NCBI GenBank assembly: GCA_937997635.1
Contig: CALLFA010000086.1
Coordinates: forward strand, 1-64,000
Reading direction: 5' to 3'
From: an uncultured Saprospiraceae bacterium
GTDB lineage: Bacteria > Bacteroidota > Bacteroidia > Chitinophagales > Saprospiraceae
Length of the DNA: 64,000 bases
The translations under genes and the position numbers were made by a program. Of this stretch, positions 47,072 to 52,287 are shown one piece after another. The number at the start of each line of letters is the position of its first letter. The first letter of the stretch is position 1. The notes beneath the pieces are model-generated. The model was not told where the DNA came from and did not search any database. It saw only the letters and a list, made by a program, of their open reading frames with translations.

Positions 47072-48586
47072 TTACAAAGTACATCCATTTATAAGACCAT
47101 TAAAAATAGCACCAGCTTCAATTTCAAATTCAGGATTTAATTGAATAAAAGTCCCAGCTTCAAATCGGACATCAGCATTCGACTCTATAATGACGTCAGT
47201 AGTTGTTATCTCATTTACTGTGAAATATTGATCTGCATTACCTCCTTGAAAAGTTGTATTATTTATCTGTTCGTTATCTCGACATTGATTGTACATCCAT
47301 TCAATACATTCGACATCTAGGTTTCTAATGCCAAAATCTGGAACGTTGTTTACAAAATCGCTATTGCATAAGCTACCATTCATCAATGCCGTGCAAGAGC
47401 CTCCTATATGATCCAAATTATAACTATGTAACAATTCATGTATGATCAACGCTGTATATTGATAACCTGAAAGACAACCAGCATCACTATTTAAAAATAT
47501 ATACGAGGATTTGGCTTCGAGCCATTGATTGCCGCATTGGTCAGTGATGCAGGGTATTTTAGCAAAAGTACCACCTGTGCCTACAATGCCGTTGCAAGAT
47601 GGTGAAAGATCAGCAAGTTCATCACAAGGGTCATCAAAATATACCCATATCACGGGTAGATCATTGGGATTACAAATATTATTCGTCACGGTAGCGACTT
47701 CTGAACAACCCGTTGTGTTACAATCCTGGACAAGTGGTGATGCCAGACTAATGGAAATACCATCTATATTATTCAATGTCTGTATTGCATCTTCCAAATA
47801 TGTGAATTCTAAACTAGTCGATGGATCATCAGATGCCGTATTCGCTACTTTTATTTCAAGATGAGTATTAGAAGGATACTTTGCTGGAGAAAGTGCACCA
47901 GCTGATATATTACAAAACGTATTTAGATTAAAAGGGTCACCTATTAATGTTGTGCAATGAGCTGGTATTGCACAGGAGCTTGTCTTGTTAACAGCTATTT
48001 GCTGTATACGATTAGTTGAATAATCGAACGATTTAAATCCGGCTTTTTTGTAAGCAATTTTATTTGATTTTAATTGCTGTCTAAACTGATTGCTTTTATA
48101 TGAACCAAGTAATGATTCATCAATGTCTCCCATAAAACATAGATCTAGAATTTTTTCTGTTCTTGCCAATATCAATTCTCCATCTTTCTCTATTTCTTGA
48201 AAAACAGACAAGGCTTGTAGTCTTGGCCTGTAATATCCCTTTCCATCCTTAAAAAGAAACAGCAGATATTTTTCTCCAATGGCAAAATTGACATCCCCGC
48301 TCACACTCAACCATTCTGAAGCAGTCTGCGTACTTGCTTCTTTGATAAGAATTGTAGAATTTTTGTTTACCGCTCCTTTAAATGACTCTAGCACCCTAAA
48401 CTTATTAATCGTGCCAAAGTCGTCGTGATGAGCCTTCACTTCTCCAAACACCACGAATTCTGAATGTTGAAATAATTCATTGATGTCTTTGGGTGGAATT
48501 ATTGTAGTCGCCAAATTGACATTACAAAAACTCAAAAACGTTAAAAGTGTTAAACATCCGCGACTACACATCGAAAATACCGTCAT
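47072..48586 (-). CDS. Secreted metzincin-like zinc metallopeptidase with C-terminal Cys-ending domain
   Basis: HELLHSYNLDH zinc motif; C-terminus VRFEAGTFIQLNPEFEIEAGAIFNGLINGCTL. Confidence 0.75.
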   Translation of the reverse strand: MTVFSMCSRGCLTLLTFLSFCNVNLATTIIPPKDINELFQHSEFVVFGEVKAHHDDFGTINKFRVLESFKGAVNKNSTILIKEASTQTASEWLSVSGDVNFAIGEKYLLFLFKDGKGYYRPRLQALSVFQEIEKDGELILARTEKILDLCFMGDIDESLLGSYKSNQFRQQLKSNKIAYKKAGFKSFDYSTNRIQQIAVNKTSSCAIPAHCTTLIGDPFNLNTFCNISAGALSPAKYPSNTHLEIKVANTASDDPSTSLEFTYLEDAIQTLNNIDGISISLASPLVQDCNTTGCSEVATVTNNICNPNDLPVIWVYFDDPCDELADLSPSCNGIVGTGGTFAKIPCITDQCGNQWLEAKSSYIFLNSDAGCLSGYQYTALIIHELLHSYNLDHIGGSCTALMNGSLCNSDFVNNVPDFGIRNLDVECIEWMYNQCRDNEQINNTTFQGGNADQYFTVNEITTTDVIIESNADVRFEAGTFIQLNPEFEIEAGAIFNGLINGCTL

Positions 48587-48651
48587 AATTACGTAGAATA
48601 AAAAAACATTTAAAAAAGGGTGTAGATTCGGGGCATCAAAAATTGCGTACC

Positions 48652-49989
48652 GTGAAAATTAGAAATCTCTTATTGGTAGTAACAATTTCCGCTATAAGTG
48701 TACAAATGTATGCTCAATTATCTTTACGCACAAGTCTACAGTCTGAATGGAAAGACAGTACAGATTTAAATTTAGGCTATAATGACGTTTGGGGTTATGT
48801 CGCACCTAACGGAGATGAGTACGCGATTATTGGTTCTCGCACGAAGGTAAATTTCGTCAATATTACAGACCCAACCAATCCTTTCAGTGTCACCAAACAT
48901 GTGGGAGGAAGCAATACGATTTGGAGAGATATCAAAACCTACAAACAATACGCCTACAGTGTATGTGATGTATGTACTGAAGGCTTACTTGTTTTCGATT
49001 TATCAACATTACCCAATACAGCGACACATGTCAATCAGATTACGACAGACTTTGAGCGGGCACATAATATTTTTATTGAAGGAGATAGATTGTATGTTGT
49101 TGGTATGGTTGGCAATGATGATTTATTGATTTACGATTTATCTGTTGATCCTGTTAGCCCTACACTTTTAGCAACTGTTGACTTGGATATTATTTTAGAT
49201 ACGGGGGTTGACATGTTGTATATACATGATATATATGTTCGAAATGATATTGCATACGCATCACATGGGAATCCGGGCTATTTTATATGGGATGTATCAG
49301 ATCCACAAAACATTTCTCTCATTGCTGAAAATGCTTTTGGTGGTTATAATCACAGCAGTTGGCTGAGTGAAGATGGCGAATATGCGTATGTCGCTGAAGA
49401 AGTACCAAGAGGATTGCCTATGCAGTTAGTAGATCTGCGGGATATGACCAATGGTAATATCAACAGTATATCTACCTTTCATGATAACCTTGCTCCTATT
49501 GGTCCAAATAATGAGAGAGTAACCCAACATAATCCATTTGTCAAAGACGACCTTCTCTACATATCAAATTACGAAGATGGGTTGAAAATATACGACATTG
49601 AAATTCCCGATAATCCCGTCCTATTTGCATATTACGATACTTATCCAGACGACAATCTCGCTGGTCAATATAGTGGCTATAATGGTGCTTGGGGGACTTA
49701 CCCTTTCTTACCATCCGGTAATATTTTAGTCTCTGACAGAACCTATGGATTGCAGGTTATTGTACTAGATTACAAAGAGTGTGCTGGTGTTGCAAAAGTG
49801 ATTGGTCATATTACATCTAGCGAAAATGAGAGCTACTCTTGTTGCATCATCACAAGTACGTCCTCTTCTTCTATCAGCGGTAATGTAGATTCTGAATATA
49901 CTGCGGGTCAATACGTTACTTTGGGCAATAACTTTGAAATAACTTTAGGGTCAAATGTTCTATTTGACATTGAATCATGTGAAAACTGA
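48652..49989 (+). CDS. Choice-of-anchor-B (LVIVD-like) secreted protein
   Basis: NDVWGYVAPNGDEYAIIGSRTKVNFVNITDPTNP, HDIYVRNDIAYASHG; C-terminus YVTLGNNFEITLGSNVLFDIESCEN. Confidence 0.8.
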   Translation: MKIRNLLLVVTISAISVQMYAQLSLRTSLQSEWKDSTDLNLGYNDVWGYVAPNGDEYAIIGSRTKVNFVNITDPTNPFSVTKHVGGSNTIWRDIKTYKQYAYSVCDVCTEGLLVFDLSTLPNTATHVNQITTDFERAHNIFIEGDRLYVVGMVGNDDLLIYDLSVDPVSPTLLATVDLDIILDTGVDMLYIHDIYVRNDIAYASHGNPGYFIWDVSDPQNISLIAENAFGGYNHSSWLSEDGEYAYVAEEVPRGLPMQLVDLRDMTNGNINSISTFHDNLAPIGPNNERVTQHNPFVKDDLLYISNYEDGLKIYDIEIPDNPVLFAYYDTYPDDNLAGQYSGYNGAWGTYPFLPSGNILVSDRTYGLQVIVLDYKECAGVAKVIGHITSSENESYSCCIITSTSSSSISGNVDSEYTAGQYVTLGNNFEITLGSNVLFDIESCEN

Positions 49990-50057
49990 CACTTTTATGT
50001 GAGCTTCCACATTGTTTATTTAAAGTCGTATACTTGTGTTACATCTAACATTCAATT

Positions 50058-51599
50058 ATGCGGATTTTTCTATTTGTCTTAACACTATTTCTATCGACTA
50101 TCTCATATGCTCAATTAATCCAAACGGTTAATTTGCTTGGCACCTATGATCCTCCTACTAGCGATTTGCCACAATCTGGAGGTGTACAGTTTAATGATGT
50201 ATGGGGCTATACCAGTCCAGCTGGAAGAGAAATAGCAATTCTTGGAAATGTCAGTTATGTGGTTTTTGTTGATGTGACAGATCCTACAAATCCAACGGAA
50301 ATCCATAGGCATGCGCCTGGGAATACGTCTATTTGGCGTGATTTCAAAACCTACAAACAATATGTCTATGGTGTCAGCGATCAATTTGGTGCTACTGAAG
50401 GTCTGCAGATTTATGACCTTAGTAATTTGGATTGCGGTGGAGAAATTATAAATCTGGGTGGCATCACAGATCAATTTGAAACGTCACACAACATCTTTAT
50501 AGACGAACCAAACCACAGATTGTATGTCGTTGGTCTAAGACAATTTACAGATGTTTATGTGTACGATCTGGAGCCGGACCCTACAAATCCAGTCTTATTA
50601 GCTAATGTGAATTTTAATGCAGCGATAGCTAGCAGTGAAGGCTTATATGTTCATGACATTTATGTTAGAGATAACATTGCATATTGTTCACATGAATTTA
50701 CTGGTTTATATATTTGGGACATGACAGACCTTAGCAATCCAAATAACCCGCCTTCGAATGGTGGCAGTTCAATACAGCTATTAGCTACAGATGACTATGG
50801 AGGGTATAATCACAGTTCCTGGGTCACAGAAGATGGTCAATTCGCAATAACCGCAGAAGAAATCCCTGCTGGTAGAGAATTAATCTCCGTTGACATTTCT
50901 CAAATGACAAGTGGTAATATTTTTGATGTCGACATGTTTTCTCATAGCTTAGAACCTGTGGGAAGACCTACACCACACAATCCGTATATCAGAAACGACT
51001 TTTTATTTATTTCCTACTACGAAGACGGATTTAAAGTTTTTGATTTCAGTGACCCAACAGCACCTACCCTGTATGGGAATTATGACACATATCCACTCAA
51101 TCAAGGAGGCTATTCAGGTACTGAAGGTGCGTGGGGTTGTTATCCATTCTTCCCATCTGGTAATGTACTTATCTCTGACATCACCTTTGGTCTCCATGTT
51201 TTTCAAGTCACTGGGGTTGAAACTTGTGCAGACGGCATTTTGAATCAGGATGAGACGGGTGTGGACTGTGGTGGTAAATATTGTTTGCCATGCGATACAT
51301 GTTTTGATGGCATACAAAATCAGGATGAGACTGGTATAGACTGTGGAGGCTCGATTTGCTGTGCCACATGTCCACCACCATCTGCAGTTGATTGTGATGA
51401 TGTCAGTCTCACTATCACAAGCGACATTACTACTGACAGAGATGAGTATTATTCAGATTTTGTAGTCACATCAGGTGTCGTTATTCACCAATCACCATTT
51501 GATGCCAAATTCCACGCAGGTAATTTTTTACAAGTGAATCCTGGTTTTGAAGTACTGCAAGGTGCACAATTGTTGTTGGCAATTGAAAGATGTCAATAA
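50058..51599 (+). CDS. Choice-of-anchor-B secreted protein with Cys-rich repeats and C-terminal Cys-ending domain
   Basis: NDVWGYTSPAGREIAILGNVSYVVFVDVTDPTNP; CADGILNQDETGVDCGGKYC/CFDGIQNQDETGIDCGGSIC; C-terminus FLQVNPGFEVLQGAQLLLAIERCQ. Confidence 0.82.
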   Translation: MRIFLFVLTLFLSTISYAQLIQTVNLLGTYDPPTSDLPQSGGVQFNDVWGYTSPAGREIAILGNVSYVVFVDVTDPTNPTEIHRHAPGNTSIWRDFKTYKQYVYGVSDQFGATEGLQIYDLSNLDCGGEIINLGGITDQFETSHNIFIDEPNHRLYVVGLRQFTDVYVYDLEPDPTNPVLLANVNFNAAIASSEGLYVHDIYVRDNIAYCSHEFTGLYIWDMTDLSNPNNPPSNGGSSIQLLATDDYGGYNHSSWVTEDGQFAITAEEIPAGRELISVDISQMTSGNIFDVDMFSHSLEPVGRPTPHNPYIRNDFLFISYYEDGFKVFDFSDPTAPTLYGNYDTYPLNQGGYSGTEGAWGCYPFFPSGNVLISDITFGLHVFQVTGVETCADGILNQDETGVDCGGKYCLPCDTCFDGIQNQDETGIDCGGSICCATCPPPSAVDCDDVSLTITSDITTDRDEYYSDFVVTSGVVIHQSPFDAKFHAGNFLQVNPGFEVLQGAQLLLAIERCQ

Positions 51600-51666
51600 G
51601 CCAATATGTAATATAGCTTACTTGTTTTTTCAAATATGTGTTTTAACTTTATGTAAAATTTCAAAA

Positions 51667-52287
51667 ATGAAAAACCTCAGGTTATTACTATCACTCGTAT
51701 GTATGTTACTTGTGCAGCTGACATTTGCGAGTCACGACGAAGATCTAGATGGTGATCTTTCTAATGATCCGATGAATCCAACTGTTATAAATGTAGTAAA
51801 TGGTTCAAATGAGGTATGTGCAGCTTCTCTAGCACCAGATACGGATTTTTTTACAATTACAGTTCCAGCTGGAGCGACATTGGATGAAATCGAGCTGACG
51901 AGTTTTAATTCTGCTGGTGTCGGGTTTTTAGGTTTCGCTTCAGGTACGACCATTGATCCGAATGCAGGAATACCAGGATTACTAGGATGGACACATTTGG
52001 GTAATGCACAAGGTCCACAATTGGCAGAATTGGGGGCTAATGGTGGAATTGGCTTTACTAGCCCATTAGGCCCTGGTGATTATACATTTTGGACACAAGA
52101 AACATCACCTGTCAATTCGACTAGCTATTGCCTAGATTTTCAGCTAACCATTCCTCCACCACCTGTTACAGCTATTCCTACTATGGGTGAATGGGGTTTG
52201 ATGATCCTCGGATTATTGATGTTGATATTAGGAGTAACCCAGATAAGAAGTGTTAATAGACACAAGAGCTTACCAGAGACAGTATAA
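51667..52287 (+). CDS. Secreted protein with IPTL-CTERM-type sorting signal
   Basis: Signal peptide MKNLRLLLSLVCMLLVQLTFA; C-terminus AIPTMGEWGLMILGLLMLILGVTQIRSVNRHK. Confidence 0.82.
   Translation: MKNLRLLLSLVCMLLVQLTFASHDEDLDGDLSNDPMNPTVINVVNGSNEVCAASLAPDTDFFTITVPAGATLDEIELTSFNSAGVGFLGFASGTTIDPNAGIPGLLGWTHLGNAQGPQLAELGANGGIGFTSPLGPGDYTFWTQETSPVNSTSYCLDFQLTIPPPPVTAIPTMGEWGLMILGLLMLILGVTQIRSVNRHKSLPETV

Follow-up and report, generated by a model that had tools for sequence, protein, structure and literature searches.

Three neighbouring genes in the window (the whole 64-kb stretch of DNA that was analysed) encode exported proteins that end in a GCX_COOH domain, here called GCX (Table 1). 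The three open reading frames and the ends of their products are exactly as reported in an earlier sequence-only reading of this DNA, and TIGR04312 matches bear out the description given there of proteins 2 and 3 as choice-of-anchor B proteins. The label metzincin-like, used there for protein 1, has its basis in the HELLHSYNLDH motif; Pfam and PDB sequence searches with this protein gave no match, and the motif is the sole basis of the label. The proteins end in NGCTL, ESCEN, and ERCQ, respectively, such that in each a cysteine is followed by one or two residues (CTL, CEN, CQ). A second cysteine lies 66-67 residues upstream of the terminal one in all three, and protein 2 has an additional pair of cysteines between these two.

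Table 1. Features of the three GCX genes and the adjoining gene (positions in the window).
Feature	Position	Strand	Basis
Protein 1, exported, 504 aa, zinc motif and C-terminal GCX domain	47072..48586	-	ORF list, NF045639 match, motif
Metalloprotease zinc motif HELLHSYNLDH, protein 1, residues 383-393	47408-47440	-	
GCX_COOH domain, protein 1, residues 434-504	47075..47287	-	42.3 bits; AlphaFold
Protein 1 GCX cysteines	upstream Cys 47282-47284; terminal Cys 47081-47083	-	
Protein 2, exported choice-of-anchor B, 448 aa, C-terminal GCX	48643..49989	+	TIGR04312 195.8 bits; NF045639 29.6 bits
GCX_COOH domain, protein 2	49774..49986	+	
Protein 2 GCX cysteines	upstream Cys 49780-49782; terminal Cys 49978-49980	+	
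Protein 3, exported choice-of-anchor B, 513 aa, C-terminal GCX	50058..51599	+	TIGR04312 176.7 bits; NF045639 22.0 bits, below cut-off
GCX_COOH domain, protein 3	51387..51596	+	NF045639 match; AlphaFold pLDDT 80.7
Protein 3 GCX cysteines	upstream Cys 51393-51395; terminal Cys 51591-51593	+	
Gene adjoining the three GCX genes	51664-52287	+	
IPTL-CTERM exosortase-H signal at the end of the adjoining gene	52174-52248		29.3 bits

The three C-termini belong to a family that already has a name. All three matched NCBIfam NF045639.1 (GCX_COOH), a model of 49 positions with a score cut-off of 26 bits; the E-values in the protein scan were 4.6e-11, 4.5e-7, and 1.1e-4 for proteins 1, 2, and 3. Protein 3 was under the cut-off in that scan, and its tail was accepted in the genome search, in which it scored 25.7 bits and, with its neighbours, 26.2 bits. 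The family name given in the sequence-only reading (3-coathanger stack/GCX-COOH) was right. The genome from which the window comes (a 5.36 Mb draft with 89% completeness, resembling Saprospiraceae most) has 91 copies of the domain. None of 14 control genomes gave a match, so the tail matches go well beyond what chance would produce; the profile scores likewise rule out that the three tails are alike by chance. The function of GCX_COOH is undescribed in the searchable literature. Our literature search found no paper naming GCX-COOH, 3-coathanger stack, or choice-of-anchor B, and no paper tying Saprospiraceae to T9SS C-termini.

The domain is predicted to be all-beta. AlphaFold models of the GCX domain of protein 1 (pLDDT 93.9) and protein 3 (pLDDT 80.7; two of the five models were poor) had the same order of strands, with five strands as counted in the models of a domain with no solved relative. 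No fold in PDB or among viral models resembled the domain significantly, and a PDB sequence search gave nothing useful. The weak PDB fold matches included several beta-solenoids.

GCX is present in a minority of genomes across the phylum and has multiplied in a few. It was found in 36 of the 298 genomes sampled, mostly as 1-3 copies, with separate expansions in a genome of another family (G190, 40 copies) and in one of the same order (G298, at least 74 copies). A scan of genome contigs with an alignment of one tail subfamily found 19 loci, 18 of which are labelled Saprospiraceae. In the source genome, 76 copies are C-terminal, nearly as numerous as the T9SS type A tails (99), which occur there together with the T9SS sortase PorU. 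A signal-peptide-like segment was present at the start of 62 of the 64 complete GCX proteins of this genome.

GCX genomes are enriched in PorU. PorU was found in 33 of 36 genomes with GCX versus 174 of 262 without it (Fisher p = 0.0016); put the other way, GCX was in 33 of 207 PorU-positive and 3 of 91 PorU-negative genomes. One of these three (G262) has a GCX copy near the N-terminus and without the cysteine, and the other two have partial matches with the terminal cysteine outside the matched part. We found no T9SS component that expanded with GCX among the two families examined. PorV did not increase (three in the source genome, two in G190) and PorP was present in ordinary numbers (nine and five).

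The cysteine at the end of the domain is conserved and coupled to a second cysteine at its other edge. The terminal cysteine aligned in 89 of the 91 copies of the source genome, as the sequence-only reading had expected of a family, and in 30 of 30 copies from G190. Among those 89, 78 have another cysteine 60-68 residues upstream, compared to a background of 25% in windows of equal width further upstream (p about 1.6e-35, a value that overstates independence because the copies are related). Cysteine frequency was 0.2% per site in the 55 residues between the pair and 3.1% further upstream. The distances were taken without alignment, so the spacing is not an alignment effect. The upstream cysteine is outside the NCBI model, which begins after it. 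Of 106 copies from other genomes, 63 have both cysteines, 30 have only the terminal one, 13 have neither, and none has only the upstream one (Fisher p = 2.3e-6). Copies that lack the terminal cysteine also lack the upstream one (p = 2.8e-10 when the source genome is added); these p values likewise overstate independence, as the copies are mutually related. Two G190 proteins of 930-960 aa have, after their first 22 residues, exactly two cysteines, and these bracket the GCX domain.

The partner of the terminal cysteine may vary where the usual one is missing. No cysteine was found 57-75 residues upstream in 30 of the 93 other-genome copies with a terminal cysteine, and some of these have one further up. 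Three tandem paralogues in G190 (C34; L205, L212, L213) have the terminal GCX cysteine and none within 75 residues upstream; each has instead a cysteine at approximately 250 residues before its end, a shared position and a possible partner. Of the 64 complete proteins of the source genome, 26 have an even and 38 an odd number of cysteines, which is uninformative as a test of pairing and does not support full pairing.

The terminal cysteine is kept when the domain is far from the C-terminus. We determined the position of 57 domains in samples of one locus per genome. In 37 of these, a T9SS type A CTD was downstream and the domain was within 260 residues of the end; 15 were otherwise internal, and 5 were C-terminal. 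The terminal cysteine was kept in 34 of the 37 domains that precede a type A CTD, about 100 residues from the end of the protein, indicating that its conservation is not owed to the neighbourhood of the C-terminus. Copies without the cysteine are mostly internal, many of them in RHS-like proteins. Most of the copies inside RHS-like proteins (G000:C7, C193, and C144, with L081, L085, and L068; and L096, L098, L100, and L104) lack both cysteines, which suggests that a cysteine-free form of the module exists. GCX was also found near the N-terminus before a subtilase-like region and in the middle of proteins. In the source genome, the cysteine is followed by only one or two residues in 57 of the 91 copies, all 57 being among the 76 C-terminal ones, and the number of residues after it ranges from 1 to 17. 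A disulfide within the domain does not by itself account for this tight end.

The GCX tails differ from the classical T9SS CTD, as the sequence-only reading had proposed. Neither TIGR04183 (type A) nor TIGR04131 (type B) was reported for proteins 1-3 at E <= 10, and a local CTD profile had no match in the entire window. The type A CTD has the conserved motifs B, D, and E and a basic residue near the C-terminus (PMC11969387); as judged by eye, motif E and the basic end are absent from the NGCTL, ESCEN, and ERCQ tails.

On similar protein bodies, GCX is found where other proteins carry the T9SS tail. In the source genome, 36 of 74 bodies with a C-terminal GCX were homologous to bodies with a T9SS type A tail. 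Ten of the 36 matched bodies of CTD proteins over at least half their length, one of them over its full 522 residues, and some of the shorter matches represent shared domains only. Contig C115 encodes a paralogue, matched by both protein 2 and protein 3, whose C-terminus is a T9SS tail, and at least 13 relatives of these two proteins in the order end in T9SS-type tails, as judged by eye. The gene that adjoins the GCX trio has an IPTL-CTERM exosortase-H signal at its end (Table 1). Nine IPTL-CTERM proteins are encoded in the same genome, together with a single XrtH-like exosortase that scored 75.6 bits, under its cut-off of 86 bits. This genome thus combines three kinds of tail: type A T9SS, GCX, and exosortase.

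Based on these results, we believe, with moderate confidence, that GCX is a disulfide-closed beta-stack that is used interchangeably with a T9SS tail and is neither cleaved nor a covalent anchor. The domain would be an all-beta, probably solenoid-like stack of approximately 70 residues that closes a Sec-exported surface protein, delivered to the surface in a T9SS-bearing cell. Its terminal cysteine is most likely disulfide-bonded to the cysteine approximately 63 residues upstream, at the N-terminal edge of the domain, and this bond would tie the first strand to the last without cleavage or covalent anchoring. The coupling of the two cysteines and the retention of the terminal one before T9SS tails point to such a bond, which is the simplest reading of the pair as judged from sequence comparisons. 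Most T9SS Bacteroidota with GCX have the domain just before the type A tail. In some few lineages, including that of the source genome, it appears to have multiplied and moved to the very C-terminus, replacing the T9SS tail on similar bodies.

C-terminal GCX could also be a third class of T9SS signal, beside types A and B, that is read by the translocon or by a shuttle protein. Such a role is compatible with the disulfide and would add a function to it. The alternation of GCX and type A CTDs at the ends of homologous proteins within one genome, the enrichment of PorU in GCX genomes, and the very short stretch after the cysteine favour this possibility, as does the report that signals of more than one family are recognised by the T9SS (PMC12618676). 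However, a signal in GCX would be redundant in the many proteins in which a normal type A CTD comes after it, PorV and PorP were not raised in the two expanded genomes that were compared, and GCX does not have the basic motif of the type A C-terminus. We regard as tentative the proposal that C-terminal GCX is a signal for secretion or surface delivery, as yet undescribed, and that it derives from a disulfide-closed module whose original place was ahead of the type A tail. The sequence-only reading had proposed a sorting or covalent surface-attachment signal; a sorting-type role is plausible and consistent with GCX and T9SS tails on homologous bodies, but the part of the claim that concerned covalent attachment or processing was not supported.

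It is rather doubtful that GCX is solely a folding cap, with no address, on proteins that lost their T9SS tail and are periplasmic or leave by some other route. A cap would fit the compact, independent fold predicted by AlphaFold and the copies inside RHS-type proteins, near the N-terminus before a subtilase-like region, or in mid-protein. However, the 76 C-terminal copies, most of which end tightly after the cysteine, and the separate expansion in G190 suggest selection for the terminal position, and the bodies that carry GCX are common to T9SS cargo. It is quite unlikely that the terminal cysteine is a site of processing or covalent attachment for surface anchoring, as the sequence-only reading had supposed from its place next to the C-terminus: it is present in nearly all copies of the source genome and of G190, mostly at or near the C-terminus, and disulfides between proteins are known in the Bacteroidota envelope (SprF-GldK and PorG-GldK; PMC12635249), but it is kept upstream of T9SS CTDs, the upstream cysteine never occurs without it, the length after it is variable, and we identified no candidate enzyme.

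A disulfide-closed module that is exchanged with T9SS tails would matter for the prediction of cargo, for which tails of types A and B are normally used. If the proteins that end in GCX are surface cargo, then approximately 76 exported proteins of the source genome would be missed, and many more in genomes with at least 40 GCX copies. The coupled cysteine pair shifts the question from an enzyme that processes the cysteine to a binding partner of the domain, and pairs of paralogues with swapped tails are ready-made test constructs.

GCX shares properties with several known C-terminal modules. Like the T9SS type A CTD (TIGR04183), it is a C-terminal module of Sec-exported Bacteroidota proteins and is found on common body families; in contrast to that CTD, it has no TIGR04183 match and no basic end, and a type A CTD is often directly downstream of it. 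The type B CTD (TIGR04131) is also an alternative class of C-terminal signal in Bacteroidota, and GCX does not match its profile. The IPTL-CTERM signal of exosortase H (TIGR04174), present in the next gene and elsewhere in this genome, is a further signal for sorting at the C-terminus. TIGR04174 tails are hydrophobic and read by an exosortase, and GCX tails do not match that model. The domain agrees with NF045639 GCX_COOH in its C-terminal profile match, in a cysteine that all but ends the protein (one or two residues remain), and in its many copies per genome. To the description of that known family, our comparison of sequences adds three properties: a coupled upstream cysteine outside the model, internal placement in many genomes, and the replacement of T9SS tails by GCX on homologous bodies.
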